A DNA stretch of 64,000 bases from an uncultured Selenomonadales bacterium. GTDB taxonomy: Bacteria > Bacillota > Negativicutes > Selenomonadales > Selenomonadaceae. The stretch covers positions 1-64,000 of the forward strand of contig CAMUZU010000007.1 of assembly GCA_947165295.1 (NCBI GenBank). Direction: 5' to 3'. The number at the start of each line of letters is the position of its first letter. Positions within the stretch are counted from its first letter, which is position 1. A model generated the notes under the pieces. The model did no database searches and had not been told where the DNA came from. It worked only from the letters and a program-made list of their open reading frames with translations. Shown in pieces: positions 5,341 through 37,830 of the stretch. The translations under genes were made by a program, and so were the position numbers.

Positions 5341-5498
5341 TACTTTCTTTGACCGAGCAAAGAAAGTAGCAAAGAAACTCGCCACTGCGTGGAGCACAGT
5401 GTCGCTGACTCTTGTGTTGTCGACGTCCGCGACTCGCGTGGCCGACGGAGTTTGCATCACGCAAACACGTCGGCTGAGGCCGTCATCCGTGACGGCCT
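5341..5498 (+). repeat. Three-hairpin element, copy A (variant stem 2)
   Basis: Stem 1 (TACTTTCTTTG at 5341 pairing to 5368) and stem 3 (GGCCGTCATCCGTGACGGCC, 5478-5497) match the family. The middle is replaced by unrelated sequence that still folds: GCCGACG (5441-5447) pairs with CGTCGGC, enclosing GTTTGC/GCAAAC with loop ATCAC. An extra small stem (CACTG/CAGTG) lies near 5382-5400. This is the longest spacing between stems 1 and 3 of any copy. It sits between the TPM duplications and the end of the mtlD transcript. Confidence 0.8.
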
Positions 5499-5516
5499 CT
5501 TTTGTTGCGGTTGTGC

Positions 5517-5572
5517 ACAAAAAAATTCCCCGGCAGTCTTCGTGACCGTCGGGTAAATTTTTTTTCGGGGTC
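5517..5572. terminator. Intrinsic terminator of the mannitol operon (bidirectional)
   Basis: The inverted repeat CCCCGGCAGTC / GACCGTCGGG lies between an A-run (5519-5525) and a T-run (about 5558-5565). It follows the mtlD stop (5585) on the minus strand and would also stop plus-strand transcripts from the TPM gene. Confidence 0.75.
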
Positions 5573-5584
5573 TGCGGTGAGGTA

Positions 5585-6718
5585 TCAGAGGTTTTCTTTA
5601 ACGAGCGCAAACAGCTTTGAATCGGCGGTTGCGCCCGTGAAATGCGTTATCGCGGCGTCAATGCCGTTTGCCTTGATGAAGTCTTGAACTTCGACGGCCT
5701 CTTTATCTTCGGCGTAATCGAACTTGAGCGCGGCGGCAATGACTTTCGCCAAAGCGACTGGAGTTTTTCCGCGTTCAAGAAGTTGCGTCGCGGGGCTGAC
5801 CAATCTGTCTGCGGCGGAAAGTTTGCGCTTGGGGCCGCGGGCAACGCGTGTGACTTCGTCGGAGAGATTCGGGTTCTTGAAGCGCGTTTCGGTCGTGGCG
5901 ACGTATTTGCCGTGAACTTCGGGATCGAAGCCGTATTTGTCGATGAGCAACGCGGAAGTTTCAGCCCACACGTTGCGAGCCGCCTCGACAATTTCGTCGT
6001 CGCGCATTGCGGTGCTCATGTCGGTGTAACCTTTTTGATACGCAAGATAAGCAATCGACGCGTGGCCGGTGTTGACGGTGAAAAGTTTGCGTTCGATGTA
6101 CGCGCCGAGATTGTCGACAAGCGTCATGCCTTTAATCGCGGGAATTTCGCCGACGACGCCTTTCGAGTCAACGTCCCATTCGGCGTAAGGTTCGACCTTA
6201 ACCAAAAGTTTTTCGTCGTTCTTCTGGAGCGGAACAATCCTGTCAACCGCCGCGTCGGGGAAGCCGATAAGCTTTTGGACTTCGGGCTTGACTTCGTCGG
6301 GCAAATTTTCGTAAACGAAATTTTTCAGCACGGTTGAGCCGCCGACCATGTTTTCGCAAGCGATGATGTTGAGCGGAGTTTTGTTGACCGCCACGCGCTT
6401 GACGAGACCTTTTGCAATGTTCGGCGCGATGAACTTCAAGATGTTCGGGCCGATAGCGGTTGTGACGATGTCCGCGTCGACAATGGCGTCAAGCAGTGCG
6501 TCGAGATTTTCGTTGCTGTTGATTGCGCTGACGTTGGTGACGAGCGTTTTGTCCGCCTCGCCGAAAATCTGAACGTTGTACTTGCCGAGCGTGTTGATGT
6601 CGTCGACGAGCGGAGCCGCAACGTCCACGAACGTCACGTGATAGCCCGCCTGCGACAACAGCAAGCCGATAAAGCCGCGTCCGATGTTGCCCGCGCCGAA
6701 GTGTACAGCTTTTTTCAT
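5585..6718 (-). CDS. mtlD: Mannitol-1-phosphate 5-dehydrogenase
   Basis: A 377-residue NAD-dependent enzyme that oxidises mannitol-1-phosphate to fructose-6-phosphate in the cytoplasm. The N-terminal Rossmann motif is HFGAGNIGRGFIG (residues 5-17). Family blocks NTGHASIAYLAY, the conserved 'ENMVGGST' and the C-terminal helical domain are present, and the length is normal. The start at 6718 is preceded by GGGAGGTCACACC. It is the last gene of the minus-strand mannitol operon, downstream of mtlA and an exported cupin. A three-hairpin element (copy B) lies between it and the cupin, so part of the message could be processed or regulated there. Confidence 0.96.
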   Translation of the reverse strand: MKKAVHFGAGNIGRGFIGLLLSQAGYHVTFVDVAAPLVDDINTLGKYNVQIFGEADKTLVTNVSAINSNENLDALLDAIVDADIVTTAIGPNILKFIAPNIAKGLVKRVAVNKTPLNIIACENMVGGSTVLKNFVYENLPDEVKPEVQKLIGFPDAAVDRIVPLQKNDEKLLVKVEPYAEWDVDSKGVVGEIPAIKGMTLVDNLGAYIERKLFTVNTGHASIAYLAYQKGYTDMSTAMRDDEIVEAARNVWAETSALLIDKYGFDPEVHGKYVATTETRFKNPNLSDEVTRVARGPKRKLSAADRLVSPATQLLERGKTPVALAKVIAAALKFDYAEDKEAVEVQDFIKANGIDAAITHFTGATADSKLFALVKENL

Positions 6719-6765
6719 GGTGTGACCTCCCGTCGTGTTTTCAAAGTTTATTTGTGTGTGTCGTC

Positions 6766-6867
6766 TACTTTCTTTCGGCGGCGAAAGAAAGTAGCAAAGA
6801 AAGCCGCGCCTGCTGTGATACATCCTGTATCACGCGCAGGCGGGACGGCCGTCATCCATGACGGCCT
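6766..6867 (+). repeat. Three-hairpin element, copy B
   Basis: Stem 1 is 6766-6793 (TACTTTCTTTCG pairing with CGAAAGAAAGTA). Stem 2 is about 6806-6842: outer CGCCTGC/GCAGGCG, inner GTGATACA/TGTATCAC, loop TCC. Stem 3 is GGCCGTCATCCATGACGGCC (6847-6866). The linker GCAAAGAAAGC joins stems 1 and 2. There is no T-tract after any stem. It lies inside the mannitol operon, so mtl mRNA carries it in reverse order (stem 3 first). Confidence 0.92.
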
Positions 6868-6879
6868 CAAAGTTCGCCG

Positions 6880-7389
6880 TTACTTGCGAAGTGATTCAAA
6901 AAACTTTTCGTCGACGGGTTCAAGCCAATCCGTCGAAACTTCTTTGCTTGACTGCATGATTGACAGGTGTTGCATCATTTTGCCGGGAGCCGCGCCGTGC
7001 CAATGTTTGACGCCTTCGGGAACGGTGAACACCACGCCGGGTTTCAACTCGACGGGGTCTTGTCCCCAAATTTGAACGTAACCCGCGCCCGACTCCGCGA
7101 CGAGAATTTGACAGGTGCTACGGTGAATGTGCCAGTAAGTGTGCGCGCCGTCAATGAAAGTAACGTTGGCGACATTGATTGAGTCTTTCGTCGACAGCGG
7201 ACAAAGGTACGTGCGTCCCGTGAAGTATTTTTCGTAGTTGACGTTCGGTTGACCGACGGGGAAGACTGTTCCGCCCGAATTGGCGACTTTCACCGCGACT
7301 TCGTCCGCCGAGGGATAATCGGCCGCCTGAGTTTGTGCGCCGAATGTCAAACACGTTGCCGCGATTAATGCTGCGAAGAATTTTTTCAT
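6880..7389 (-). CDS. Exported cupin-domain protein in the mannitol operon
   Basis: A 169-residue protein with a clear signal peptide (MKKFFAALIAATCLTFGAQTQA, cleavage about residue 22) and a single cupin fold at about 60-150. The first cupin motif supplies HIH (YWHIHRST) and the second supplies PEGVKHWHG, together a plausible metal site. Enzymatic activity cannot be assigned; small exported cupins range from binding proteins to isomerases and oxidases. It lies 3 bases after the mtlA stop and before mtlD, so it is co-transcribed with mannitol uptake, which is unusual for an extracytoplasmic cupin. Confidence 0.85.
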   Translation of the reverse strand: MKKFFAALIAATCLTFGAQTQAADYPSADEVAVKVANSGGTVFPVGQPNVNYEKYFTGRTYLCPLSTKDSINVANVTFIDGAHTYWHIHRSTCQILVAESGAGYVQIWGQDPVELKPGVVFTVPEGVKHWHGAAPGKMMQHLSIMQSSKEVSTDWLEPVDEKFFESLRK

Positions 7390-7392
7390 GGC

Positions 7393-9276
7393 TCAGCCTT
7401 TCGTGAACATGTCGAAGAGAACTTGCGGGTCTTTGGTCGTGTAAGCTTTCTGCAGATCTTCTTCGGAATATTCCATTGTGATTGTCGCCAAGTTTGCGAT
7501 AATCGCGAGATGGTCGTCGCCCTTGCCCGCGATACCAACGATTAAGTGTGCGGTGTTTTCGTCGGAGAACTTGACGCCTTGCGGATATTGCATGACGACG
7601 AGACCGGTTTTGATGACGTGTTGCTTAACAGCGTTTTCGCCGTGCGGAATTGCGATACCTTGACCGATGTAAGTTGAGATGTCGCGTTCGCGAGCCAACA
7701 TGCCTTCGATATACGGTTTCTCGACGTAGCCGCTCTTGAACAGGAGTTCGCCCGCCGCTTTGATGGCTTCTTCTTTGGAAACGGACTTCAAGCCGACTTT
7801 GACGTTTTCTTTAAGCAGGACGCCTTCTTTAAGCGCGGTGCCGCCCGCGTCGTCTGCCGAGCCGTCGTCTGCGGGAGCTTCAACGCCGCCGCCTTTGAGA
7901 CGTTCGCTGATGATGTCGTAAACGTTGTTGTTGGTGAAGTCTTTAACCCAAATGTGTTCGGCTTGCGGAGAGTCCGCCGCCGCACGTTCGGCAAGTTTTT
8001 CGTGCGAAACAACAATCTGCGCGTCCTTGGGGATGTTGCCGATTGCGAAGTTCTTGACGGTGATGTTTTTGTAACCGTCTTTCTGGAGTTTTTTGCGGAG
8101 AGCCGCCGCGCCGAGTGCCGAGGAGCCCATGCCCGCATCGCAAGCGTAAGCAATGAACTTGATGTCTTTGCCGGCAACTTGTTTTTCGCCCGACTGACCT
8201 TTGGAGGCAGCTTTCATTGCCTTCATGTTCGCCTGTGCCGCTTCGAGTGCGTCTTCTTTTTCAGCGTCCGCCGCCGCCGTAGCTTTGATGAAAATTGAGC
8301 TGACCGCGAAACTCACGCCTGCCGCAGCAGCGACCGCCGCGACGTTCGCGAAGTATGCGCCGGGTGCCGTCATTGCCATAATCGCGATAAACGAGCCGGG
8401 AGCCGCAGGAGCCACGAGACCGCCGTTAAGCAAAGTCAACGTGAACACGCCCGTAATGCCGCCCGCCATAACCGCGAGAATCAGCGCAGGTTTCATGAGG
8501 ACATACGGGAAATAAATTTCGTGAATGCCGCCGAAGAAGTGAATGATAACCGCGCCGGGTGCCGAGCCGCGAGCGTTGCCGACGCCGAACAGCGAATACG
8601 CAAGCAACACGCCGAGACCGGGGCCGGGGTTCGATTCAATCATGAAGAAAACCGACTTGCCGACTTCCTGCGCCTGTTGCATGCCGAGCGGTGTGAAGAC
8701 GCCGTGGTTAATCGCGTTGTTCAGGAACAGAATCTTCGCGGGTTCAACCAAAATCGACACGAGCGGAAGAAGTCCCGCGCTGACGATTGCGCCGACAGCC
8801 GAGGCAAGCCCGTCCGTGATACTCGACACAATCGGTCCGACGAAGCTGTACGCCGCGCAGGCAAGCACGCCGCCGAGGATACCGGCCGAAAAGTTGTTGA
8901 CGAGCATCTCGAAGCCGCCGGGGATTGAGTCTTGCGCCGCCTCGTCGAATTTTTTAATCGCGACGCCGCCAATCGGACCCATAATCATTGCGCCCATAAA
9001 CATCGGAATATCCGTGCCGACGATTATGCCCGCCGTTGCGATTGCGCCGACGACGCCGCCGCGGTGACCGTAGACGACTTCGCCGCCCGTGAAGCCGATT
9101 AACAGCGGGAGCAACCACTTCGCCATCGGCCCGACAAGTTCCGCAAGTCCTTCGTTGGGTATCCAACCTGCGGGAATGAACAAGGCCGTGATGAAGCCCC
9201 ACGCAATGAACGCGCCGATGTTCGGCATGACCATTGCGCTCAAGAAGCGACCGAATTTTTGCATGGCCTCTTGCAT
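7393..9276 (-). CDS. mtlA: Mannitol PTS permease, EIICBA fusion
   Basis: A 627-residue three-domain transporter that imports mannitol and phosphorylates it to mannitol-1-phosphate. The EIIC membrane domain spans about residues 1-340 (MVMPNIGAFIAWG opening, many hydrophobic helices, GGIHEIYFPYVL block). EIIB carries the phosphocysteine in YACDAGMGSSALG (Cys379). EIIA at the C-terminus carries the phosphohistidine in GIAIPHGENAV (His545). The start at 9276 has TGGAGGTGTT upstream; longer starts run into the 5' leader. It is first in the operon mtlA - cupin - mtlD with a good promoter at 9351-9379. No mannitol regulator gene is in the window. Confidence 0.96.
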   Translation of the reverse strand: MQEAMQKFGRFLSAMVMPNIGAFIAWGFITALFIPAGWIPNEGLAELVGPMAKWLLPLLIGFTGGEVVYGHRGGVVGAIATAGIIVGTDIPMFMGAMIMGPIGGVAIKKFDEAAQDSIPGGFEMLVNNFSAGILGGVLACAAYSFVGPIVSSITDGLASAVGAIVSAGLLPLVSILVEPAKILFLNNAINHGVFTPLGMQQAQEVGKSVFFMIESNPGPGLGVLLAYSLFGVGNARGSAPGAVIIHFFGGIHEIYFPYVLMKPALILAVMAGGITGVFTLTLLNGGLVAPAAPGSFIAIMAMTAPGAYFANVAAVAAAAGVSFAVSSIFIKATAAADAEKEDALEAAQANMKAMKAASKGQSGEKQVAGKDIKFIAYACDAGMGSSALGAAALRKKLQKDGYKNITVKNFAIGNIPKDAQIVVSHEKLAERAAADSPQAEHIWVKDFTNNNVYDIISERLKGGGVEAPADDGSADDAGGTALKEGVLLKENVKVGLKSVSKEEAIKAAGELLFKSGYVEKPYIEGMLARERDISTYIGQGIAIPHGENAVKQHVIKTGLVVMQYPQGVKFSDENTAHLIVGIAGKGDDHLAIIANLATITMEYSEEDLQKAYTTKDPQVLFDMFTKG

Positions 9277-9296
9277 GAGTAACACCTCCAAAAAGC

Positions 9297-9330: not shown

Positions 9331-9350
9331 TACGCTAAATCCTGCGTCGA

Positions 9351-9607: not shown

Positions 9608-10780
9608 TCAGCCTTTCCAACCGAGCTGTCGGGCACGTGCGAAGTCTGCGCGGGCTTTGGCTTCGTCGCCGAGCCGTTGCCAACACACGCCGCGTCCGAC
9701 ATACACTCCGGCATCATCGGGCTTAAGTTCAATCGCCGCGTCAAGGTCGGCAAGCGCACGGTCATATTGCTCCAACAGGAAGTAAGCGGCACTGCGATTA
9801 ATGTACGTCGTCGCGTTGTTCGGGTTGAGTTCAATCGCCGTCGTGTAATCTTGAATTGCCCGTTCGCATTGTTGTTGACTGAAGTAAGCGAAACCGCGAT
9901 TGTTGTATGCGTCCGCGAAATCGGGCTTGAGTTCAATCGCCGTCGAGTAATCGGCAATTGCCCGCTCGTTTTGATTCAAGTGATTGTAAGCGAAACCGCG
10001 GTTGTTGTACGCCTCCGCGAAATCGGGCTTGAGTTCAATCGCCGCGTCAAGGTCGGCAAGCGCACGGTCGTATTGACTGAGATTGTTGTAAGCCGTGCCG
10101 CGATTGTTGTACGCCATAACAAAATTCGGCTTGAGTTGCAAAGCTTCGTTGTACAGCCGAATCGCGCCGTTGTAATCTTTGGCGTAAGCAAGTTTGTTGC
10201 CCTCGTCGACTTTCCTGTTCGCCAAAAAATCGCGGTCGGCCTGATTCATCTGTTGACGAATTTGATCGCGTTCGGCCTGCGTCGCGGCGCGTGTATACTG
10301 CTCCTTCAACGCGTCGACTTGCTCGTCGTTCTTGTCGATGGCGTCCTGCAACTGCGCGTTCCGCCGAATGACATTGACTTTGTCGGTGTCGTCGCGCTTT
10401 AGCCAATCGTAAATGCCGTCGGTGTCGATTGAGGCCTTGAGCGTCGCACGGTACATTAAACCTGCTTCGCCGTCAGCCTCAAAGGGCACGGGAACAATCT
10501 TCACGTCGAAAACGCTGATGATGTCGTTCATGACGGCTGAAACTTCGTCGTCGGCAAGTTCGCTGTCAATCGTGCGCGAAAAAGTTTTTATCGCGACGCC
10601 GGCTCGCTTTTGAGCGTCACGTTCGGCACGCTGTTGAGCGCGTTGTTTGGCGATGTCGTGGTTTTCAAAGTCGCTCATGATGTATTGACCCGTGCCGTCG
10701 AAAACCTGAATCGCCGCGTAAACAAAAGTTGCCGTCAACAAGCACACTGCCGCGACAATCAACGCAAGAAATTTCTTCAT
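9608..10780 (-). CDS. Exported TPR-repeat protein
   Basis: A 390-residue protein with a signal peptide (MKKFLALIVAAVCLLTATFVYA). A domain at about 23-130 has a QRAQQRAERDAQKRAGVAI helix resembling LPP20-type domains. A charged, probably coiled segment lies at about 135-195. Then five to six tetratricopeptide repeats fill 195-385, each recognisable by AYNNRGxAY .. YDRALADLDAAIELKPD. It most likely acts as a periplasmic or cell-surface scaffold; the partner is unknown. Two of the repeats are nearly identical at the DNA level, pointing to recent internal duplication. It is transcribed alone on the minus strand, with a terminator right after the stop. Confidence 0.88.
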   Translation of the reverse strand: MKKFLALIVAAVCLLTATFVYAAIQVFDGTGQYIMSDFENHDIAKQRAQQRAERDAQKRAGVAIKTFSRTIDSELADDEVSAVMNDIISVFDVKIVPVPFEADGEAGLMYRATLKASIDTDGIYDWLKRDDTDKVNVIRRNAQLQDAIDKNDEQVDALKEQYTRAATQAERDQIRQQMNQADRDFLANRKVDEGNKLAYAKDYNGAIRLYNEALQLKPNFVMAYNNRGTAYNNLSQYDRALADLDAAIELKPDFAEAYNNRGFAYNHLNQNERAIADYSTAIELKPDFADAYNNRGFAYFSQQQCERAIQDYTTAIELNPNNATTYINRSAAYFLLEQYDRALADLDAAIELKPDDAGVYVGRGVCWQRLGDEAKARADFARARQLGWKG

Positions 10781-12224: not shown

Positions 12225-12352
12225 GTTACTTTCTTTCGGCGGATTGTGTTACTTTCTTTCGGCGGCGAAAGAAAGTAACCAAAGAAAGCCGCGCTTGCTG
12301 TGATACATCCTGTATCACGCGCAAGCGGAGCGGCCGTCATCCGTGACGGCCG
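12225..12352 (+). repeat. Three-hairpin element, copy C, with a duplicated half-stem
   Basis: Stem 1 is 12250-12277, stem 2 about 12290-12327 (outer CGCTTGC/GCAAGCG, inner GTGATACA/TGTATCAC) and stem 3 GGCCGTCATCCGTGACGGCC at 12332-12351. Compared with copy B, the outer stem-2 pair C-G is replaced by T-A on both sides, a compensatory change. Just before it, GTTACTTTCTTTCGGCGG (12225-12242) repeats the left half of stem 1. The next gene starts 36 bases after the element. Confidence 0.92.
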
Positions 12353-14046: not shown

Positions 14047-14699
14047 AAATTTTTGTCGGGCTGGGAAATCCGACGCCCGAATACGCCGCGACGAAACACA
14101 ACGTCGGTTTCATGCTCGCGGACAGGCTTGCCGACGAACTTTCCGTTCACGATTGGCGAAACAAATTCAACGCGCTGGTCGCTGAAACTTTCCTTGACGG
14201 CGAAAAAATTTTACTAGTCAAGCCGCAGACGTTCATGAACTTGAGCGGTGAGGCCGTCGCGCCGCTGATGAATTTTTACAAACTCGACGCGTCCGATTTA
14301 ACCGTTGCGCATGACGACATGGACTTGCCGCTCGGAACAATCCGCTTGCGTCCGAAAGGTTCGGGCGGCGGTCACCATGGCGTTGAGTCGATTATCCAAC
14401 ACCTCGGCGGCGAACAAAATTTCCCGCGTGTGCGAATCGGTGTCGGTCGTCCGCCACGGAATTGGTCGGTCAATAGCCACGTCCTAAGCCCGTTCACACA
14501 AGACGACGCCGACAAAATTTCCGCCGCGCTTGATGAACTCGTGCCCGCCGTGCTGTGCATTTTCCGCGAAGGCATTGACATTGCAATGAACAAGTTCAAC
14601 CCGCGCAAGGCAAAAGTTGTGAAGCCCGACGTCGAAGAAAATCCGGCCGACATGGATGTCGGCCGCTCCGCCCGTCGCACGATACAGGATGTATCGTAG
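14043..14699 (+). CDS. pth: Peptidyl-tRNA hydrolase with element-derived C-terminus
   Basis: A 218-residue cytoplasmic enzyme that releases peptides from prematurely dropped peptidyl-tRNA. Catalytic His19 (KHNVGF) and Asp92 (HDDMDLP) are present, as are FVGLGNP and the KPQTFMNLSG block. The usual fold ends near residue 195 (NKFNPRK). The last residues (ADMDVGRSARRTIQDVS) are encoded by three-hairpin element copy D, whose stem 2 supplies the TAG stop. Typical relatives are about 185-195 residues, so roughly 20-25 residues are extra. The start overlaps the upstream hydrolase stop. Confidence 0.95.
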   Translation: MKIFVGLGNPTPEYAATKHNVGFMLADRLADELSVHDWRNKFNALVAETFLDGEKILLVKPQTFMNLSGEAVAPLMNFYKLDASDLTVAHDDMDLPLGTIRLRPKGSGGGHHGVESIIQHLGGEQNFPRVRIGVGRPPRNWSVNSHVLSPFTQDDADKISAALDELVPAVLCIFREGIDIAMNKFNPRKAKVVKPDVEENPADMDVGRSARRTIQDVS

Positions 14700-14747
14700 C
14701 GGGCGCGGTTTTCTTTGGTTACTTTCTTTGTCCGCACAAAGAAAGTA
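14645..14747 (-). repeat. Three-hairpin element, copy D (inside the pth 3' end)
   Basis: In reverse orientation: stem 3 GGCCGACATGGATGTCGGCC (14645-14664), stem 2 about 14670-14706 (inner ACGATACA/TGTATCGT) and stem 1 14720-14747 (TTTGTCCGCACAAAG core). Stem 3 has A-T where most copies have T-A, with both sides changed together. The pth stop codon (14697-14699) lies in stem 2. Confidence 0.92.
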
Positions 14748-14793
14748 ATATTAATCGCGAACGAACGTTTCGAGAAAGCTTTGGTGACCGCTC

Positions 14794-14970
14794 ATGACGA
14801 ATCCGATAACAGCGTTGATTGCTGACGAACACGGAAATATTTTCGACGTGCCGAATGCGCAGGCGGTCGGTCGTGTCGGCGGTCGCTTTAGAAGCGACGG
14901 AACAGTTGGTGTGACCCGCGACGTTTCGACAACTCTAACGTTTCAAGAAAGTTTTGGTGACCGCTCATGA
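14794..14970 (+). pseudogene. Duplicated 58-codon start fragment of the radical-SAM gene, copy 1
   Basis: ATG to TGA gives 58 residues starting MTNPITALIADEHGNIFDVP. The first 29 residues mirror the N-terminus of the gene at 15140; the rest (from GRFRSDGTVGV on) is unrelated to it. Its TGA overlaps the ATG of the next copy (ATGA). It is probably non-functional on its own, but the overlapping stop-start makes coupled translation into the next copy possible. Confidence 0.6.
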
Positions 14971-15143
14971 CGAATCCGATAACAGCGTTGATTGCTGACG
15001 AACACGGAAATATTTTCGACGTGCCGAATGCGCAGGCGGTCGGTCGTGTCGGCGGTCGCTTTAGAAGCGACGGAACAGTTGGTGTAACCCGCGACGTTTC
15101 GACAACTCCGTCGTTTCGAGAAAGTTTTGGTGACCGCTCATGA
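14967..15143 (+). pseudogene. Duplicated 58-codon start fragment of the radical-SAM gene, copy 2
   Basis: The second 58-residue fragment is nearly identical to copy 1 and differs only near its end. Its TGA overlaps the ATG of the full-length gene at 15140 by ATGA, so ribosomes finishing it would sit on the real start codon. Confidence 0.6.
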
Positions 15144-16372
15144 CGAATCCGATAACGGCGTTGATTGCTGACGACGCGGGCAATATTTTCGACGTGCCGG
15201 GCGCGCAGGCCGTCGGTCGTGTCGGCGAAAAATTTTTCAAGCTCAAGCCCGAAGATTTAATCAAGTTGCCCGACAGCGCAGATTTAATGTTCTTGCCGCA
15301 ACGGAGAGCCGTCGGCTTCAAGCGCGGTGAATTCGTCGAACTCAACGGACGGGCGGTCTCGGCGATATTGCCGCAAGGTTTCACGCGAACTCACCTGCCC
15401 GCGTTCCGAAAGTCCAAACACGCGCAAATTTTGCCGCTGTACGGTTACACGGCCGTTGCGCTGTACAAGGACGAACTTTATGCCGCCGCGCTTTACACCG
15501 ACGAAAATCACAAGTGGGATCCCGTCAATTACAACACGCACGACTTGCCGAAGTTGATTCGCCGCGTGAAGAAGTCTTTGCCCGACAACCGAATCGTCGC
15601 GCAGGTGGCGAACTGTTCGCTCAAGTGGCACTGCTTGACCGCGCAGAATTTGTTTTACCGTCGCTGGGAATGCGGCGTGCCGACTTCGCCGACGTGCAAC
15701 GCGAACTGTTTGGGCTGTATTTCACTGCAAGCCGCCGAATGTTGTCCGAGCCCGCAGAGTCGAATCACTTTCAAGCCGACGGTCGACGAAATTGCCGACG
15801 TCGGGATTTTTCACCTGTCGCACGCGGTCGACGGAATTGTCAGCTTCGGGCAAGGTTGCGAAGGCGAACCAAGTTTGCAGGCGGAAAACATCAGCGCGGC
15901 GATTAAAAAAATTCGTGCGTCAACTTCACGCGGGCAAATTAACATCAACACGAACGCGGGCTTCACGGCGGGCATAAAAAAAATCGTCGACGCCGGGCTT
16001 GACTCGATGCGCGTTTCGATTATCAGCGCACGCGACGAAAGTTATCAACGTTATTATCGCGCAGGTTACACGCTTGCCGCCGTGAAAGCTTCGATTGCTT
16101 ATGCGTTGGCGAACAATGTTCACGTGTCGCTGAACTTGCTGTACATGCCCGGCTTTAACGACCGCGACGAAGAGTTTGCCGCGTGGAAAGATTTTTTGAC
16201 TGAATTGCCCGTGCAGATGATTCAGGTGCGCAACCTCAATTACGACCCCGACGCGTTCTTTGCGGCAATGGAGCGCGACGAAAACTTTTCGGGCACGAAG
16301 AAATTTCTTCACGAACTTAAAGCGACGTTCCCGAATTTGACCGTCGGCAACTTCAGTCATTACGTCAAATAA
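15140..16372 (+). CDS. Radical SAM protein
   Basis: A 410-residue protein. CNANCLGC (CxxxCxxC, about residues 190-197) is the radical SAM cluster motif. It is followed by a GQGCEGEPSL block resembling the SAM-binding GGE region and a C-terminal TIM-barrel-like half (DSMRVSIISARDESYQRYY). An N-terminal domain of about 180 residues precedes the cluster. The reaction is unknown; a peptide or RNA modification is possible but not shown. No standard Shine-Dalgarno is seen, only GGTGA nine bases upstream. Initiation may therefore depend on coupling to the duplicated mini-ORF that overlaps the start, or on the third of three tandem ATGs. An intrinsic terminator follows. Confidence 0.9.
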   Translation: MTNPITALIADDAGNIFDVPGAQAVGRVGEKFFKLKPEDLIKLPDSADLMFLPQRRAVGFKRGEFVELNGRAVSAILPQGFTRTHLPAFRKSKHAQILPLYGYTAVALYKDELYAAALYTDENHKWDPVNYNTHDLPKLIRRVKKSLPDNRIVAQVANCSLKWHCLTAQNLFYRRWECGVPTSPTCNANCLGCISLQAAECCPSPQSRITFKPTVDEIADVGIFHLSHAVDGIVSFGQGCEGEPSLQAENISAAIKKIRASTSRGQININTNAGFTAGIKKIVDAGLDSMRVSIISARDESYQRYYRAGYTLAAVKASIAYALANNVHVSLNLLYMPGFNDRDEEFAAWKDFLTELPVQMIQVRNLNYDPDAFFAAMERDENFSGTKKFLHELKATFPNLTVGNFSHYVK

Positions 16373-16413
16373 AAAAATCCCGTCACTCGTCGGAGCGGCG
16401 GGAAATTTTTTTG
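16373..16413. terminator. Bidirectional terminator between the radical-SAM gene and pgeF
   Basis: TCCCGTC .. CGGCGGGA (16378-16403) lies between A7 and T8 tracts, directly after the radical-SAM stop. On the minus strand it would also have been the original terminator of pgeF before the insertion at 16456-16610. Confidence 0.8.
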
Positions 16414-16422: not shown

Positions 16423-16643
16423 TTAAGCGCGATAAGTGCGGCGATTCGTCCCGTGTTGCGTTAAATGTTACTTTCTTTGGCAGCAAAGAAAGTAACCAAA
16501 GAAACTGCGCTTGCTGTGATACATCGTGTATCACGCGCAAGCGGCGCGGCCGACATCCATGTCGGCCGGATTTACGTTCGCGGTTGTTGTCGTCGGTTCA
16601 AACGTCGGGCTTAAGCGCGATAAGTGCGGCGATTCGTCCCGTG
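16423..16643 (-). repeat. 33-bp direct repeat of the pgeF 3' end flanking an insertion
   Basis: The 33 bases starting TTAAGCGCGATAAGTGCGGC occur at 16423-16455 and again at 16611-16643. The right copy is inside pgeF and encodes TGRIAALIAL. Read in the same frame, the left copy gives the same residues and then KA and a stop at 16418-16420, right next to the terminator. The left copy is therefore the old gene end, and the 155 bases between the copies were inserted. Confidence 0.88.
16468..16568 (+). repeat. Three-hairpin element, copy F
   Basis: Stem 1 is 16468-16495 (core TTTGGCAGCAAAG), stem 2 about 16506-16543 (CGCTTGC/GCAAGCG, loop TCG) and stem 3 GGCCGACATCCATGTCGGCC (16548-16567). It lies within the 155-base segment bounded by the 33-bp direct repeats, which makes it the copy with the clearest insertion boundaries. 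Confidence 0.92.
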
Positions 16644-20420: not shown

Positions 20421-20524
20421 CGGCCGTCATGGATGACGGCCGCCGTCGCCCGTCGCACGATACAGGATGTATCGTAGCGGGCGCAGCTTTCTTTGCTACT
20501 TTCTTTCGCTGCCGAAAGAAAGTA
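20421..20524 (-). repeat. Three-hairpin element, copy G
   Basis: In reverse orientation: stem 3 GGCCGTCATGGATGACGGCC (20422-20441), stem 2 20448-20482 (outer GCCCG/CGGGC, inner ACGATACA/TGTATCGT) and stem 1 20497-20524 (core TTTCGCTGCCGAAAG). It lies between the LPP20 gene terminator and the ftsY start. The right flank (GTAGATC .. AATCGAAGCGACGC, 20522-20554) is shared with copy J. Confidence 0.92.
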
Positions 20525-20591
20525 GATCACAAACGCGTTCAATCGAAGCGACGCCGCCGCAAAGTCACCCGTCAATCGACAGCCGCCGTGA

Positions 20592-20624
20592 CAAAAAAAA
20601 TCCCCGCCGCGTGTGTGACGGGGT
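20592..20624 (-). terminator. Terminator of the LPP20-domain gene
   Basis: On the minus strand CCCCG .. CGGGG (20602-20623) is followed by ATTTTTTTT, about 20 bases after the stop at 20646. Confidence 0.75.
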
Positions 20625-25969: not shown

Positions 25970-25990
25970 AAGTTCACGCGTGTGTTGTGT

Positions 25991-26092
25991 TACTTTCTTT
26001 GACCGAGCAAAGAAAGTAACCAAAGAAACTCGCGCCTGCTGTGATACATCCTGTATCACGCGCAGGCGGACGGCCGTCATCCATGACGGCCT
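25991..26092 (+). repeat. Three-hairpin element, copy H
   Basis: Stem 1 is 25991-26018 (core TTTGACCGAGCAAAG), stem 2 about 26031-26069 (CGCCTGC/GCAGGCG, inner GTGATACA/TGTATCAC) and stem 3 GGCCGTCATCCATGACGGCC (26072-26091). It lies between topA and trmFO, 31 bases before the trmFO start. Confidence 0.93.
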
Positions 26093-26122: not shown

Positions 26123-27439
26123 TTGAAAGTTCACATTGTCGGCGCGGGATTGGCAGGCTCCGAGGCGGCGTGGCAAGTCGCAAAACGCGGCGTCGAAGTC
26201 GTCTTGCACGAGATGCGTCCCAAAAAATTTTCACCTGCACACAAAACCGCAAACTTCGCCGAACTTGTCTGCAGTAATTCGCTCCGTGCGGCGGGCTTGA
26301 CAAACGCAGTCGGCGTCCTCAAAGAAGAAATGCGGCGGCTTGATTCGGCGATTATGTCTGCGGCGGACGCGGCGAAAATTCCTGCGGGCGGTGCTTTGGC
26401 AGTTGACCGTGCCGAATTCGGTCGCCTTGTCACCGAAAAAGTTTCGAGCGTCGCCGAAATTGTCACCGAAGAAGTCACCCGCCTTGACGACTTTGCCGAC
26501 GACGTTTTGATTGTCGCGAGCGGTCCGTTGACCGAAGGCGCGCTTGCCGACGAAATTAAGCGGCTCACGGGCGGCGACGATTTTTATTTCTACGACGCGG
26601 CGGCTCCGATTGTCACCGTCGATTCGATTGACTTCAGCAAGGCGTTCAAGGCGTCACGCTACGGCAAGGGCGACGACGATTCTTACGTCAACTGCCCCAT
26701 GACCCGCGACGAATATTTGACTTTCCGCGCTGAATTGATTGCCGCCGAAAAGACTAAGCCGCACGATTTCGAGCGCGAAATTTTCTTCGAGGGTTGCCTG
26801 CCCGTCGAAGTGCTTGCGTCACGCGGCGAAGACACGATGCGTTTCGGGAACTTGAAACCAATCGGTCTGCGTGACCCGCGCACGGGCGAACGTCCTTATG
26901 CCGTCGTTCAGTTGAGGCAGGACAACCGTGCCGCGACGCTTTATAATTTGGTCGGCTTCCAAACGCATTTGACGTGGCCTGAACAACGCCGCGTCTTCCG
27001 CATGATACCGGGGCTTGAGTCGGCCGAATTCGTGCGTTACGGTGTTATGCACAGAAACACGTTCATCAATTCGCCGAAACTGTTATTGCCGACGTTTCAA
27101 CTTAAAGCGTCGCCGAAAATTTTATTCGCGGGACAAATCACGGGCGTTGAAGGTTACGTCGAATCTGCGGCTTCGGGACTTGTCGCGGGCGTCAATGCGG
27201 CACGGCTTGCCAAAGGTTTGGACGCGCTTGTCTTCCCGCCGACAACCTGTCACGGAGCTTTGGCGAATTACATCACCACGGCGGACGCGAAAACTTTCCA
27301 GCCCATGAACGTAACGTTCGGATTGTTGCCGCCGTTGGACGAACGCACACGCAAAAAGTTCCGCAAAGAAAAATTGTTAACGCGTGCACTTGAAGACTTG
27401 AAAACTTTCTGCGAAACGCTAATCGGCCGTCATGGATGA
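26123..27439 (+). CDS. trmFO: Methylenetetrahydrofolate-tRNA-(uracil-5-)-methyltransferase TrmFO
   Basis: A 438-residue flavoenzyme that methylates U54 of tRNA using methylenetetrahydrofolate. The FAD-binding N-terminus is [22 protein letters not shown] (the conserved Cys region), [20 protein letters not shown] and [19 protein letters not shown] are all present. TTG at 26123 is the likely start (TTTGGAGGCGACAAC upstream); earlier in-frame ATGs lie in element copy H. The C-terminus ends ETLIGRHG, where GRHG and the TGA stop are encoded by stem 3 of element copy I. Confidence 0.95.
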
Positions 27440-27528
27440 CGGCCGCAACCGCTTGTCGCACGATACAGGATGTATCGTAGCAAGCGCGTCTTTCTTTGGT
27501 TACTTTCTTTCCACGCGGAAAGAAAGTA
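27425..27528 (-). repeat. Three-hairpin element, copy I (supplies the trmFO stop)
   Basis: In reverse orientation: stem 3 GGCCGTCATGGATGACGGCC (27425-27444), stem 2 27451-27485 (outer GCTTG/CAAGC, inner ACGATACA/TGTATCGT) and stem 1 27501-27528 (core TTTCCACGCGGAAAG). In the trmFO frame stem 3 reads Gly-Arg-His-Gly-stop. Stem 2 differs from copies D and G by CC to TT on one side and GG to AA on the other. Confidence 0.93.
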
Positions 27529-27563
27529 ACGTAAAAAACACGACTTTGAACGGAGAATCACGC

Positions 27564-29639: not shown

Positions 29640-30935
29640 ATGGAATTCGGCATGTGCGGCAAAAATTTGATGTGGCGGCTTGAAGACAACGGCACTTTGA
29701 CAATCAGAGGCACGGGCAACATGGAAAATTACTCTGGCAAACAAAAAGCTCCATATTACGATGAGCGATACATATCGCAACCTTCAATCAAAAAAGTTAT
29801 CATCGAGTACGGTGCGACTTCTATCGGCGGCTGTGCTTTCGAGGGTTGCGAAAGTTTAACTAGCGTGACAATTCCAAACTCCGTCACGACCATTGGCAGT
29901 TGGGCTTTCGGCTTGTGTGAGAACTTGAAGGAAATAAGGCTACCCGACAGCATCACGTTCATTGGCGAAGGAACTTTTCTTAATTGCAAAAGCCTGACAG
30001 CAATAAAAATTCCCAATGGTGTTACGAAGATTAGTGTTTATTCTTTCGGCTTGTGTGAGAGCTTGAAGGAAATAATGCTACCCGACAGCATCACGTTCAT
30101 TGGCGAAAAGGCTTTCAGCTTTTGCAAGAGCTTAAAGGAAATAATGCTATCCGACAGCATCACGTTCATTGGTGATTATGCTTTCTGCGGTTGCAGTAGC
30201 TTTAAGACAATAACAATCCCCAACAGCGTCACGTCAATTGGAAAAGGGATTTTCCTCGGTTGCGATAGTCTTGAAAGAATTTACTGTAAACGAGGAACTA
30301 GCTTTAAAAGCAAATTACGTGATGGCAACAACGCCAAACTGATTCCGTACAACGTCACGCCGCCCGTCACGAAACCGACAGTTCAAACCGTCACACGACC
30401 GAAACCGACAGCTCAACCCGTCACGCAACCGAAACCGACAGCTCAACCCGTCGCCGAAAAGTTGACGTGGAGTTTCGCGGGCAAGACCTTGACCGTCGGC
30501 GGTGTGCGCGAGATAAAATTTTTCCCGTACGGGCAGATTCCGTGGCTCAAACATCTGCATGACATTCAGCGGATTGTTGTCGGTGACGGCGTCGAAAAAA
30601 TTGCCGCGCAAGCCTTCGAGGAGTGCAAACGCCTTGAGCTTGTGACGTTGCCCGCAAGCGTGAAGACAATCGGCGACATGTTTGCAAGCGTTTCGTTCTG
30701 CGGCGACAGATTCGTCAACGGCGGGCGAAATGTTTTTTGGTGCCTTGAAGACGGTGTGCTTGTCCTGAAGAAAAATCCCGCCGCAGTCGGTGACGATTTT
30801 TCGACGGGCTTTGCGTCGTGGATATTCGCGGACAAAAACATTCGCGGCGTCAAACTTGAGCCGGGTATCAAGCCGACGGAAAATTTCTTCGCGTGGCTCT
30901 CAAGTCACGACGGCGCGGCAATTTCTTTCGGATAA
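29640..30935 (+). CDS. BspA-type leucine-rich repeat protein 1, no signal peptide
   Basis: A 431-residue protein. It opens with the usual LRR_5 cap (CGKNLMWRLEDNGTLTIRG). It then has about seven repeats of the form LPDSITFIGExAFxxCxSLxxI (residues about 55-225), a Thr/Pro linker with three near-identical KPTAQPVTQP units (about 240-270), and a second cap and repeat block. The C-terminal domain (FWCLEDGVLVLKKNP to ISFG) is shared with the paralogues at 30958 and 35395. Despite the family's usual surface location, no signal peptide or anchor is seen. GGAGGCGAAC precedes the ATG. Adjacent LRR repeats are nearly identical in DNA. Such repeats usually mediate protein binding. Confidence 0.88.
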   Translation: MEFGMCGKNLMWRLEDNGTLTIRGTGNMENYSGKQKAPYYDERYISQPSIKKVIIEYGATSIGGCAFEGCESLTSVTIPNSVTTIGSWAFGLCENLKEIRLPDSITFIGEGTFLNCKSLTAIKIPNGVTKISVYSFGLCESLKEIMLPDSITFIGEKAFSFCKSLKEIMLSDSITFIGDYAFCGCSSFKTITIPNSVTSIGKGIFLGCDSLERIYCKRGTSFKSKLRDGNNAKLIPYNVTPPVTKPTVQTVTRPKPTAQPVTQPKPTAQPVAEKLTWSFAGKTLTVGGVREIKFFPYGQIPWLKHLHDIQRIVVGDGVEKIAAQAFEECKRLELVTLPASVKTIGDMFASVSFCGDRFVNGGRNVFWCLEDGVLVLKKNPAAVGDDFSTGFASWIFADKNIRGVKLEPGIKPTENFFAWLSSHDGAAISFG

Positions 30936-30957
30936 AATTTTTCGGGAGGCGAACGAC

Positions 30958-31875
30958 ATGCAAAGCGGTTCATGCGGCGAAAATCTGCGCTGGAAACTCG
31001 ACGACGAAGTACTCACAATCAGCGGCACGGGCGACATGGAAAATTACTTCTACAAGCACAATCCACCGTGGCGCGCTTGCATGAGGTCAATTCAAAGAGT
31101 GGTCATCGGCAAGAATGTCGCGACGATTGGCACGGAAGCTTTTCAATGTTGCAGTAAGTTGACGTGGGTCACGATTCCCAATGCCGTTACGCTGATTGGC
31201 GAAAGTGCCTTCAACACGTGCAAAAATTTGCGACGCTTGGACATCGGCAAAGGTGTCGAGACGATTGGCTCAAAAGCGTTCATCCTTTGCAACAATTTGT
31301 CGAACATCATAATCGGCGACAACGTCAAGGTAATTGGCGACGGTGCCTTCAACGGCTGCGAAAACGCGCACGACTTGACGATTTCCGACTCCGTCGAGAC
31401 AATCGGTGAAGCTGCTTTTGCCAATTGCAAAAGTTTGACGGAGGTAACAATTCCCGATTCCGTCAAAACAATCGGCGAGTGTGCTTTTGCCGACTGTGAA
31501 AATCTCAAGAGCGTGACAATCGGCCACGGCGTCGAAACAATCGGCAGGTTTGCTTTCTTCGGTTGCACGCAGTTAAAAAATTTGACAATCGGCGACGGCA
31601 TAAAGAACATCGACAATTGGGCGTTCCCGTTTTGCGATTGCGGCAACCCGACAATCTTCGACGGCGGAAATGTTATCTGGTGCCTTGAAGACGGCGTGCT
31701 TGTCCTGAAGAAAAATCCTTACGCGAAGAGTGACGCGGACTTTTCGACAGGCGAAGTGACGTGGCGATTCATCGAGAAAAACATTCGCGGCGTCAAAGTC
31801 GAACGCGGCATCAAACCGACGGAAAAATTTTTCGAGTGGCTTGCGGCAAGCGGCAAACAAATTTCTTTCGAGTGA
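30958..31875 (+). CDS. BspA-type leucine-rich repeat protein 2, no signal peptide
   Basis: A 305-residue paralogue starting MQSGSCGENLRWKLDDEVL. It has about eight LRR_5 repeats (IGESAFNTCKNLRRLDIG type) and the shared C-terminal domain ending KQISFE. The ATG at 30958 has GGGAGGCGAACGAC, the same leader (GGAGGCGAACGACATGCAAA) as the third paralogue at 35395. It lies 22 bases after LRR protein 1, in one transcript. No signal peptide, membrane segment or linker is seen. Several Cys residues per repeat fit a reducing, cytoplasmic setting better than an exported one. Confidence 0.87.
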   Translation: MQSGSCGENLRWKLDDEVLTISGTGDMENYFYKHNPPWRACMRSIQRVVIGKNVATIGTEAFQCCSKLTWVTIPNAVTLIGESAFNTCKNLRRLDIGKGVETIGSKAFILCNNLSNIIIGDNVKVIGDGAFNGCENAHDLTISDSVETIGEAAFANCKSLTEVTIPDSVKTIGECAFADCENLKSVTIGHGVETIGRFAFFGCTQLKNLTIGDGIKNIDNWAFPFCDCGNPTIFDGGNVIWCLEDGVLVLKKNPYAKSDADFSTGEVTWRFIEKNIRGVKVERGIKPTEKFFEWLAASGKQISFE

Positions 31876-33825: not shown

Positions 33826-33843
33826 GTTAATCACTCCTTTTTG

Positions 33844-33852
33844 TGTTATGAT
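33844..33852 (+). promoter_or_regulatory. Extended -10 promoter of the kinase gene
   Basis: TGTTATGAT lies 36 bases upstream of the GTG at 33889, within the divergent gap shared with the HTH regulator. Confidence 0.5.
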
Positions 33853-33888
33853 AGCCAAACAGAAATTTTTTGCAAGGGTGGCGGTCTC

Positions 33889-35376: not shown

Positions 35377-35394
35377 ACTTTGGAGGCGAACGAC

Positions 35395-36423
35395 ATGCAA
35401 AGCGGCTCATGCGGCAACAATTTGCGCTGGACTCTCGACGACGACGGCACGCTTACAATCGGCGGCGAAGGCGACATGAACAATTACTGGTACGATTCGC
35501 CGTGGTACAAAAGCGCACGCGTCAAGAAAGTCATCGTCGAAAGCGGCGTGACTTCAATCGGTAAAATGGCTTTTGAAGATTGTCACGAAATTGTAAGCGT
35601 GGCACTCCCGAACAGTTTGAGGCACATCGGCAATTTCGCGTTCAACTTTTGCACAAGCTTGCGCGACGTGAATATTCCCGACGGCGTCACGAAGATTGGT
35701 CAAAGCGCGTTCAAATGTTGCGGCGGCTTGACGAGCATAATAATCCCCGAAAGCGTCACCGAGCTTGACGATTGGACGTTCGACACTTGCACGGGCTTAA
35801 CACGCGTCACAATCCCCGACACCGTAAAGACATTCGGGCGCGGCGTCTTCAGCTGTTGCACGAGTTTGACAAGCGTCACGATTCCCGCAGGCGTCGTTGA
35901 ATTCGGCGATTACGTCTTCGACCGTTGCACGAACCTTAAAACGATTTACTGCGCGGCGAACTTTCGCTTCACGGGGCTTTTGTCTTACGGCAACAGCGCG
36001 AAAATTATTCCGTGCAGTTTGACTTGGCAATTCGACGACGGCACGTTGACTGTCGGCGGTGTGCGCGAATTGAACTTTGTCGACGAAGAACCGCCGTGGC
36101 TTGACCGTTGCGAAAGAATTCAAAAGCTTGTCGTCGGTGACGGTGTCGAAAAAATTTCCGCGCACGCCTTCGACAACTGCCCGCGACTTGAAGTGGTGAC
36201 CTTGCCCGACAGCGTGAAGACAATCGGCGACATGGCGTTTCCGTTTTCGTTCTGCGGCGATTTCAACGTCAACGGTGGCAAAAATGTTTTCTGGTGCGTT
36301 GAAGACGGCGTGCTTGTCGTTAAGAAAAATCCCGCAGCGGTCGGAGACGACTTTTCAATCGGCACGGTGCGTTGTTGGCGTGATGTCGAAAAAAATATTC
36401 GCGGCGTCATTCCAAATTCCTAA
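35395..36423 (+). CDS. BspA-type leucine-rich repeat protein 3, C-terminally truncated
   Basis: A 342-residue paralogue starting MQSGSCGNNLRWTLDDDG at ATG 35395, with TTTGGAGGCGAACGAC. About six LRR_5 repeats (IGKMAFEDCHEIVSV type) are followed by a second cap and the shared C-terminal domain. The domain stops early: after KNIRGV, where the paralogues continue with about 25 more residues to ISFE/ISFG, this protein reads IPNS and stops. IPNS and the stop come from an AT-rich repeat (ATTCCAAATTCCTAATTAC). It is co-transcribed with the kinase. No signal peptide is seen. Confidence 0.87.
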   Translation: MQSGSCGNNLRWTLDDDGTLTIGGEGDMNNYWYDSPWYKSARVKKVIVESGVTSIGKMAFEDCHEIVSVALPNSLRHIGNFAFNFCTSLRDVNIPDGVTKIGQSAFKCCGGLTSIIIPESVTELDDWTFDTCTGLTRVTIPDTVKTFGRGVFSCCTSLTSVTIPAGVVEFGDYVFDRCTNLKTIYCAANFRFTGLLSYGNSAKIIPCSLTWQFDDGTLTVGGVRELNFVDEEPPWLDRCERIQKLVVGDGVEKISAHAFDNCPRLEVVTLPDSVKTIGDMAFPFSFCGDFNVNGGKNVFWCVEDGVLVVKKNPAAVGDDFSIGTVRCWRDVEKNIRGVIPNS

Positions 36424-36441
36424 TTACAAATTCCTAATTGC
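36413..36441. repeat. AATTCCTAATTA repeat ending LRR gene 3
   Basis: ATTCCAAATTCCTAATTAC followed by AAATTCCTAATTGCAG forms two imperfect direct copies. It is related in reverse complement to the GGAATTAGGAAT repeat in the mtlA leader (9297-9330). It supplies the last four codons and stop of LRR gene 3 and precedes tmcAL. Confidence 0.6.
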
Positions 36442-36459
36442 AGTTTTGAGGCGAACACG

Positions 36460-37680
36460 TTGGCAGTCGGAATAATCGCGGAGTACAACCCGTTCCACGC
36501 GGGACACGCATATCAAATCGCGCAGATTAAAAATTTTTCGGACGCGGAGATTGTCGCGGTAATGAGCGGCAACTTCACTCAGCGCGGCGAACCTGCAATT
36601 CTCGACAAGCACACACGCGCACGGCTCGCTGTTGCAAACGGCGTCGATCTGGTGTTTGAACTTCCGTTCGTGTCGGCGGTCAGGAGCGCGCAGGACTTCG
36701 CACGCGGCGGAATTCGTCTGCTCGAAAGTTTGGGCGTCGTCGATACGTTGGCATTCGGCGCGGAGGTGACGGACTTGCCGAAATTGAAACTTGCGGCTTC
36801 GACGTTCAACGAAAAATTTTTCGCAGACGAACTTCACGCGCTCATGTCGACGGGCACAAGTTACGCGGCAGCCGTCACGAAAATTTTGGCGACAGTCACC
36901 GACCTCGACGAAAAGTTTTTGCGTCAACCGAACACGATACTTGCCGTCGAATATTTGCGAACGTTGCCCGAAAAAATTTCGCCGCTGTTAATCGCTCGAC
37001 GCGGAGCCGCTTACGACGATTCGACGTTGCACGAAGAATTTTCGTCTGCGTCGGCAATTCGGACGGCAATTCGCGAACCGTCACCGCCGTGGCAAAAAAT
37101 TTCCGCGCAGGTGGACGCACAAACTTTGACGGCACTTCGCGACGAAAAACTTTCGGGGCTCGTCGACGAAGAATTTTTGTTTCGCCCGCTGTTGACCCAG
37201 TTGTTGACTGCGACCGCCGCCGACCTGCGAAAAATTTACGGCATGACGGAGGGACTCGAATTCAGATTGCTCGACGCCGCGACGCAAGCCGAAAGTTTGT
37301 CGGAGCTGGTGACGCTTGTCGTCGGACGAAGATTTACCGCAAGCCGCGTGCGACGATTAATCTTGCACACGTTGCTTGACGTGACGGGCGAATTGATTGC
37401 CGAAGTTGACGCGTCAACCTGCGCGAAAGTTTTGGCGTTCAGCGAACGAGGCCGCCGCTTGCTGAAAAAAATATCTGCGCCCGTGGTCACCAAACTCACA
37501 AAGCATTTGAATCGCCGCGACTTGACGGAGGGGACGCGCCCGCTTGAGCCGTGCCAAAAAATTTTGCGGACGGACGTGCTTGCAAGCGACCTGCGGGCAA
37601 CATTGTTTGACGTGCCGAAACCGCGACGAACTGACTTCACGACATCTCCGACAGCGAAGGTAACCGGCCGTCATGGATGA
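36460..37680 (+). CDS. tmcAL: tRNA(Met) cytidine acetate ligase TmcAL
   Basis: A 406-residue enzyme that activates acetate with ATP and makes N4-acetylcytidine at the wobble position of elongator tRNA-Met in Firmicutes. The N-terminus GIIAEYNPFHAGHAYQI is the nucleotidyltransferase HxGH-type signature. MSGNFTQRGEPAILDKHTRA and DLVFELPFVSAVRSAQDFA are also diagnostic. TTG at 36460 is the likely start (TTTTGAGGCGAACACG). The C-terminus TGRHG and the TGA stop are encoded by stem 3 of element copy J, exactly as in trmFO with copy I. Confidence 0.93.
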   Translation: MAVGIIAEYNPFHAGHAYQIAQIKNFSDAEIVAVMSGNFTQRGEPAILDKHTRARLAVANGVDLVFELPFVSAVRSAQDFARGGIRLLESLGVVDTLAFGAEVTDLPKLKLAASTFNEKFFADELHALMSTGTSYAAAVTKILATVTDLDEKFLRQPNTILAVEYLRTLPEKISPLLIARRGAAYDDSTLHEEFSSASAIRTAIREPSPPWQKISAQVDAQTLTALRDEKLSGLVDEEFLFRPLLTQLLTATAADLRKIYGMTEGLEFRLLDAATQAESLSELVTLVVGRRFTASRVRRLILHTLLDVTGELIAEVDASTCAKVLAFSERGRRLLKKISAPVVTKLTKHLNRRDLTEGTRPLEPCQKILRTDVLASDLRATLFDVPKPRRTDFTTSPTAKVTGRHG

Positions 37681-37830
37681 CGGCCGCCGCCCGCAGTTGA
37701 TACAGGATGTATCACCTGCGGGCACACACGGCACGAGGTACCGACAACATTTTGGCGACGAATGACCAACGCCCCCGCGAGGGGTCTTTTCTTTTTGCTA
37801 CTTTTTCTTTGGACAAGCAAAGAAAAAGTA
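37666..37830 (-). repeat. Three-hairpin element, copy J, with an internal terminator-like insert
   Basis: In reverse orientation: stem 3 GGCCGTCATGGATGACGGCC (37666-37685), stem 2 37689-37723 (outer GCCCGCAG/CTGCGGGC, inner TGATACA/TGTATCA) and stem 1 37799-37830 (longer, CTTTTTCTTTG). Between stems 2 and 1 an extra 75 bases include CCCC-GCGA-GGGG followed by TCTTTTCTTTTT, itself terminator-like (37771-37796). It supplies the tmcAL stop. Confidence 0.88.

Follow-up and report, generated by a model that had tools for sequence, protein, structure and literature searches.

A dispersed bacterial repeat combining GGA-loop hairpins with a predicted triple-helix pseudoknot

Background

A non-coding repeat of about 100-170 nt was analyzed in a 64,000-nt stretch of DNA (hereafter the window) from an uncultured Selenomonadales bacterium of the family Selenomonadaceae (assembly GCA_947165295.1, contig CAMUZU010000007.1, positions 1 to 64,000 of the forward strand). 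Several described systems come close to it. TwoAYGGAY (RF01731), with two successive A-Y-GGA-Y hairpins on the same strand, was listed as probably RNA by Weinberg in 2010 (PMC2864571) and was proposed, in passages of PMC4333381, as a ligand of CsrA. PIT elements and TMECO, known here through PMC4666352, are presented there as dispersed intergenic repeats made of a pyrimidine arm, a loop, a purine arm, a short linker and a mirror purine tract; the main text of that paper makes no use of the term pseudoknot. Repetitive extragenic palindromic sequences and bacterial interspersed mosaic elements (REP/BIME) are high-copy, palindromic and intergenic, lie close to gene ends and occur in both orientations, REP sequences having a GTAG-type signature, while CsrB/RsmX-type CsrA-binding RNAs carry GGA in hairpin loops. 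In telomerase RNA the pseudoknot is of the H-type, and its U-rich loop 1 occupies the stem 2 major groove.

Like TwoAYGGAY, the window element has two successive hairpins, and in congeners (below threshold) and in Gammaproteobacteria the element that scores as TwoAYGGAY continues into the stem-linker part that we call the triplex module. Unlike TwoAYGGAY, the window copies were unmatched by its model, and their hairpin 2 loop is shorter and partly lacks GGA. The order of tracts and the dispersed intergenic positions are those of PIT elements, but TMECO is GC-rich and was studied as DNA (PMC4666352), whereas the window element is A-rich and has a loop-tail helix and GGA hairpins. Compared to REP/BIME it is longer and has a predicted triplex, and no Y1 (RAYT) transposase was found in the source genome (G000) or in G006. 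Its hairpin-loop GGA recalls the CsrB/RsmX-type RNAs, but it occupies about 100 dispersed sites and had no Rfam match above threshold. Its predicted triple-helix arrangement resembles that of telomerase RNA, which implies no common ancestry. The separate ingredients are of known kinds; their combination (triplex pseudoknot, GGA hairpins and mobile repeat) was not found in the open-access literature by sequence or by topic, most subscription journals lying outside that search. The element joins three themes that were separate in the sources consulted: an Rfam candidate RNA suspected of binding CsrA, bacterial DNA triplex repeats and REP-like mobile repeats.

Predicted fold of the GGA strand and covariation

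A preliminary description of the window had reported three hairpins per copy, with covariation pointing to selection on structure. The hairpins were present and the selection is supported by covariation and third-strand tracking, but a pseudoknot and a triplex relation had been missed: the loop of its stem 1 pairs with bases beyond the linker, and stem and linker form a mirror repeat. It is the opposite strand, bearing the GGA loops, that is informative. Here hairpin 1, whose loop has an invariant GGA, comes first, then hairpin 2, whose loop usually has GGA too, and at the 3' end a predicted pseudoknot of the H-type. In copy 7 (25990..26091, minus strand; 113.9 bits with the covariance model), used as reference for the sub-parts, all of which are on the minus strand, hairpin 1 (26072..26091; GGCCGUC AUGGAU GACGGCC) comes first and is followed by hairpin 2 (26041..26059; GUGAUACAGGAUGUAUCAC), with GGA in its loop. 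The 3' part reads CGAG-UUUCUUUGG-UUACUUUCUUUG-CUCGGU-CAAAGAAAGUAA. Its last hairpin (25990..26019) has the stem UUACUUUCUUUG/CAAAGAAAGUAA, supported by covariation, and a loop at 26002-26007. The four bases CGAG (26029..26032), which precede UUUCUUU, are complementary to loop bases 26004-26007, a pairing supported by covariation and shuffles; UUUCUUU itself (26022..26028) is the putative third strand, recognized by its mirror match and by shuffles.

In an H-type pseudoknot of this order, loop 1 traverses the deep groove of stem 2, and it is for this reason that the topology matches the sequence on the GGA strand. The linker UUUCUUU is parallel to, and the mirror of, the stem purine strand AAAGAAA, and parallel orientation is required for a pyrimidine-motif triple helix in the major groove (PMC4666352). 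We propose that the third strand forms U.A-U and C+.G-C major-groove triples.

In an alignment of 51 copies, 41 from the source genome and 10 from other records, the structure including the pseudoknot was 95.7% paired and 19 of the 33 pairs showed two-sided changes. The covariation score was 0.352, compared to 0.112 in shuffled alignments and at most 0.097 when the partners were slid. An alignment across genomes deserves greater weight, because copies of one genome are related to each other and may trade modules. It holds 22 sequences, about one per genome: L109, L157 and 20 found by the model search, the window among them. In it, 21 of 27 pairs were compensated and one-sided changes were seen in 2 cells. 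The stem base changes listed in the preliminary description were correct once its copy letters were shifted (E is skipped, so that F, G and I are the fifth, sixth and eighth copies). These alignments strongly support the fold. G-U and A-C cells in the stems were about equally rare (5 vs 5; 3 vs 1), and pairing therefore does not favor RNA over DNA.

Proposed third strand and loop-tail pairing

The purine tract of the stem was compared with the tract beyond the linker in the collected loci, and 208 hairpins gave a match: 47 had the longer match as mirror, 69 had it as direct repeat, and 92 were ties. Mirror-symmetric tracts (60 AAAGAAA and four AAAAGAAAA) with a tail starting with G made up 64 of the 69 direct-longer cases, and the other five include chance matches judged by eye (L067, L169). 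In clearly asymmetric tracts the mirror match was the longer one: AAAAGAAGAAG with AAGAAGAAAA (L083), AAGAAAAG with AAAAGAA (L060, L068, L078) and AAAGAAAAAG with AAAAAGAAA (copy 9, L166). In the per-genome set the stem was perfect in 21 of 22 sequences, all 21 of which had 7-10 consecutive triples. The triples totaled 169 in parallel and 159 in antiparallel orientation; shuffles gave a mean of 158.8 and a maximum of 164, none of 2000 reaching the observed value. As judged from these sequences, the putative third strand changes along with the stem between genomes, and such three-way covariation of stem and third strand speaks for a triple helix in the major groove that occurs in nature.

With its pyrimidine arm, its purine arm and a third tract that mirrors the stem, joined by short loops, the element has the layout of intrastrand triplex (PIT/ITx) elements. 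The general triplex search also returned L065 and L067, GC-rich mirror-repeat hairpins similar to the TMECO triplex motif.

Complementarity between loop and tail averaged 4.0 bp in the source genome (31 combinations) compared to 3.52 bp in shuffles, and 3.48 bp compared to 2.52 bp in 63 distinct loops from elsewhere; none of 1000 tail shuffles was as high in the first set and none of 1000 shuffles in the second. Pairing of at least 4 bp was found in 30 of the 63 foreign loops.

Genomic placement and distribution

With up to two mismatches, the core pattern was found 119 times in the genome and not once with the reversed control, which excludes a chance origin of the repeat. The source assembly is a draft of 2.49 Mb in 110 contigs and 80% complete. 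Genes were predicted with a simple gene caller and each of 101 copies was counted on one strand. None lay within a predicted gene: 31 were sense and 30 antisense between tandem genes, 25 lay between convergent and seven between divergent genes, and eight were at edges. Element-free intergenic regions were 71 tandem, nine convergent and 16 divergent (Fisher p 0.0024, convergent vs divergent). In tandem contexts the median distance from the stop codon was 20 nt for sense and 8.5 nt for antisense copies. Such a high-copy, palindromic and extragenic repeat agrees with the comparison to REP/BIME in the preliminary description, which holds for the intergenic position, both orientations and flanking direct repeats.

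Flanking direct repeats 12 bp or longer (12-47 bp) were found at 10 of 94 copies, compared to 15 of 2000 cross pairs. Four were 29-47 bp long, the longest cross match being 17; one of these (L184) has another copy beside it and may have arisen by tandem duplication. In seven of the ten, the repeat on the left stopped 5-15 nt ahead of the element. DDE transposases leave target duplications of fixed length, and the variable length found here argues against them. It also differs from the fixed-length duplication expected of miniature inverted-repeat transposable elements, whose terminal inverted repeats were likewise not seen (no long inverted flank match in 33 copies, longest 10 nt). Flank conservation was weak, reaching about 13 nt, with no conserved promoter-like stretch further out, and the copies draw on a small number of loop and stem types, variously combined. 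In genome G016 the sites syntenic to copies 6, 7 and 8 were shorter and element-free, the joints of 6 and 7 aligning uncleanly. Copy 5 is at a synteny break, with the downstream side in G016 element-free, and the orthologue of copy 3 has its closing pair and a hairpin changed in compensated fashion. This comparison covered copies 3-8 and resolved all of them except copy 4, which is beside a tandem repeat. Taken as sequence comparisons, these results support the mobile nature of the element well.

The covariance model search gave at least 97 matches in the source genome. Of the 41 genomes of the genus, 35 hold the family and six (G003, G007, G009, G017, G051 and G052) had no match; the numbers per genome run from 0 to at least 97, with 94 or more in the source genome, G006, G010, G044, G045 and G050, and may include opposite-strand shadows. 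The sequence version differs from genome to genome. The exact pattern, present in 3 of these 41 genomes, would suggest amplification in the source species alone, a reading that the model search rejects. Across the window's phylum, the exact pattern was found in one of 398 sampled genomes, the source genome itself. The exact stem-linker pattern was present in at least 107 stretches from at least about eight phyla, as assigned from record titles that include many metagenome bins with possible mis-binning. Among the matches listed were Proteobacteria, Bacteroidetes, Selenomonadaceae, Oscillospiraceae, Lentisphaeria, Nitrospirae, Hydrogenedentota, Ignavibacteriae, Campylobacteraceae and Desulfuromonadales, and isolates among them included Caballeronia, Lysobacter, Chitinophaga, Mucilaginibacter and Actinobacillus. 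Closely similar loci came from rumen Selenomonadaceae. A separate, younger-looking version (stretches of about 160-250 nt with 93-97% identity among loci) occurs in uncultured Selenomonas CAMVGU (L061, L081, L092, L137, L140), and the sole viral contig among the matches, L235, carries the exact module at 3334-3372. With match numbers from 0 to about 100 in about 40 genomes, the genus offers a setting in which the mover, cost or benefit of the repeats may be sought.

The REP-associated transposase suggested in the preliminary description was not found. The Y1 transposase domain PF01797 had no match in the source genome (80% complete) or in G006 (99% complete, 94 element matches), and in the genus it matched in three of 25 genomes, all partially and one under the cut-off; a REP/RAYT element was rejected accordingly. 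Reverse transcriptase PF00078 was searched in 20 genomes. It was absent from the source genome, from copy-rich G004, G006, G010, G015, G016, G019, G044, G045, G049, G050 and G055 and from element-free G003, G009 and G052, and was found in G007, G013, G017 and G051 (0-1 element matches) and in G022 (43 element matches); a standard reverse-transcriptase retro-element was also rejected. A larger gene-bearing master element was dismissed, as 301 nt was the longest stretch common to 11 Selenomonas loci.

Our preferred reading, held with moderate confidence, is that of an interspersed, non-coding mobile element, probably non-autonomous and like REP/BIME in functional type, one strand of which folds. 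Its spread would require folding of that strand, as RNA or single-stranded DNA, into hairpin 1, hairpin 2 and the 3' pseudoknot, in which the pyrimidine linker would occupy the major groove of the homopurine-homopyrimidine stem. The mobilizing machinery would recognize this fold, the GGA hairpins may bind a CsrA-like protein and the triplex may shield the 3' end. Several observations weigh against it. No mobilizing gene was found among the Y1 transposases and reverse transcriptases searched in copy-rich genomes, and a flanking repeat of at least 12 bp was lacking at 84 of 94 copies. The pseudoknot is not universal, with less than 4 bp in 33 of the 63 distinct foreign loops, and it is missing from several Mucilaginibacter, Lentisphaeria and Selenomonadaceae variants. 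In the 51 copies the pseudoknot helix by itself was 83.3% paired, partly because the aligner misplaces short loops, and of the five measures of covariation, the one for further pair types was no higher than in shuffles (174/500). Palindrome-templated repair could also leave plain hairpins with compensated changes in the absence of selection.

GGA loops and alternative explanations

The element could instead be mainly a host-useful CsrA-binding RNA of the TwoAYGGAY kind, either carried in 3' untranslated regions or processed into a small RNA. It would titrate CsrA or tether transcripts to this protein, and the triplex would be a 3' stabilizer; we consider this unlikely. The hairpin 1 loop (A-N-GGA-Y) had GGA in 51/51 copies and 22/22 genomes although the hairpin 1 stem varies, while the hairpin 2 loop had it in 41/51 copies and 13/22 genomes and is mostly shorter than that of TwoAYGGAY. 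In hairpins immediately 5' of modules elsewhere (113 modules, 221 loops), GGA was found in 71 loops of 46 modules and TCC in seven loops of seven modules, a strand preference that fits such an RNA; most modules of the exact-pattern scan therefore have no GGA hairpin. The preliminary description had recognized no described family, and at the gathering score the Rfam scan of the window indeed matched only a tRNA and no copy. TwoAYGGAY (gathering 43 bits) had no match in the source genome at E <= 0.001 under stricter filters, and the best hit in a permissive Rfam scan of copy 7, rsmX, was at chance level (E 0.43) and was rejected. However, the element of relatives scores as TwoAYGGAY, and the stem-linker part belongs with the intrastrand triplexes already in print (PMC4666352). 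The TwoAYGGAY model scored 34-40 bits, below threshold, in four of 60 genomes, all congeners, and above threshold on the same element in Gammaproteobacteria.

In L120, the sole match in 17 loci scanned, TwoAYGGAY ends where the triplex module starts on the same strand. A strict module lay within 130 nt 3' of TwoAYGGAY in 30 of 40 loci, or 29 of 39 distinct ones (L120 and L265 being a single site), compared to 19 of 400 random spots. The 39 loci comprised nine from genomes picked regardless of the module and 30, of 50 matches listed, from module-holding genomes, where TwoAYGGAY matched in six of 24. A decayed module was seen by eye in eight of the 10 loci without a strict one, and eight of nine below-threshold congener loci had the module 3' of TwoAYGGAY. 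The source genome has csrA, so that, as for a CsrA/RsmA-sequestering small RNA, host csrA and GGA hairpin loops occur together. Among 40 genomes, less G471 (module at a contig end), A(N)GGA loops were found in 14 of 22 csrA-bearing and three of 17 csrA-less hosts, counts that ignore phylogeny; TwoAYGGAY-rich G468 and G475 had no csrA match, which speaks against this RNA reading. So do the balance of sense and antisense copies, the equal rarity of G-U and A-C, which shows no RNA bias, and the lack of a promoter-like stretch beyond the weak flank.

The same rarity and the unbiased orientation would suit a DNA-level intrastrand-triplex repeat acting, if at all, in replication, recombination or topology, its compensated changes being for the most part products of hairpin-templated repair and of exchange among copies. 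The mixed combinations of few loop and stem types are also in line with this, and the published intrastrand triplex DNA repeats are described as intergenic and free of strand bias (PMC4666352). Templated repair, however, could not make a mirror repeat, nor easily a loop-tail helix, and the strand-specific invariant GGA loop would be left unexplained. We regard this explanation as distinctly improbable.

Also improbable is a mobile-element reading in which a cross-phylum short interspersed element moves via an RNA copy, its 3' end protected by a telomerase-like triplex pseudoknot, with CsrA captured by the GGA hairpins as host factor, long variable target duplications and an enzyme recognizable neither as a Y1 transposase nor as a reverse transcriptase. 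That the repeat serves as a 3'-end element or terminates transcription in both directions is very improbable: despite the stop-codon proximity, the enrichment between convergent genes and a terminator-like hairpin 1 (on the strand of the preliminary description) at three of six copies in the scanned stretch, there is no real U-tract, the scan found 32 terminator-like sites compared to 36.3 in shuffles, other such hairpins lie beside copies 5 and 6 (16386-16402 and 20602-20623), six of 41 genomes of the genus had no match, and triplex and pseudoknot would be left unexplained.

Copies in the window and neighboring repeats

Covariance model R1, trained on 51 copies of which two are from the window, found exactly nine copies there; 14 further rows (E up to 1) were opposite-strand overlaps of them. 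These are the nine of the preliminary description, whose split of five copies in one orientation and four in the other was borne out (five plus and four minus on the strand read there); copy 3 starts at 12249 and not at 12225. The architecture is shared, but copies 1 and 9 have a longer, different middle part. Strands given here are those bearing the GGA loops, opposite to those read before.

On the minus strand are copy 1 (5340..5497, the long variant; 55.2 bits), copy 2 (6765..6866; 114.5 bits), copy 3 (12249..12351; 122.2 bits) and copy 5 (16468..16567; pattern extraction and covariance model), in addition to copy 7. Copy 5 is flanked by a 33-bp direct repeat identified by flank comparison (16423..16455 left, 16611..16643 right, unstranded), which is single in G016. 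Copies 4 (14645..14748; 119.6 bits), 6 (20422..20525; 108.9 bits), 8 (27425..27529; 114 bits) and 9 (37666..37831; 45.8 bits) are on the plus strand, and in copy 9 stem and putative third strand are two bases longer with three-way compensation.

Other repeats were noticed around the copies. A 95-bp direct repeat (97% identity, spacing 188 bp) is found at 5000-5282, shortly before copy 1, and a partial duplicate of the 5' stem-1 arm lies immediately upstream of copy 3 (12226-12248), perhaps through slippage or an aborted insertion. Adjoining copy 4, a 173-bp unit is repeated three times in tandem at 14764-15282 (98% and 69% to the first). Predicted coding sequence at 9716-10137 contains tandem repeats of 102-nt period and probably encodes a repeat protein. 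Repeats of 69-nt period in predicted coding sequence at 29797-31841 and 35382-36363 probably belong to what we take to be leucine-rich-repeat surface proteins.

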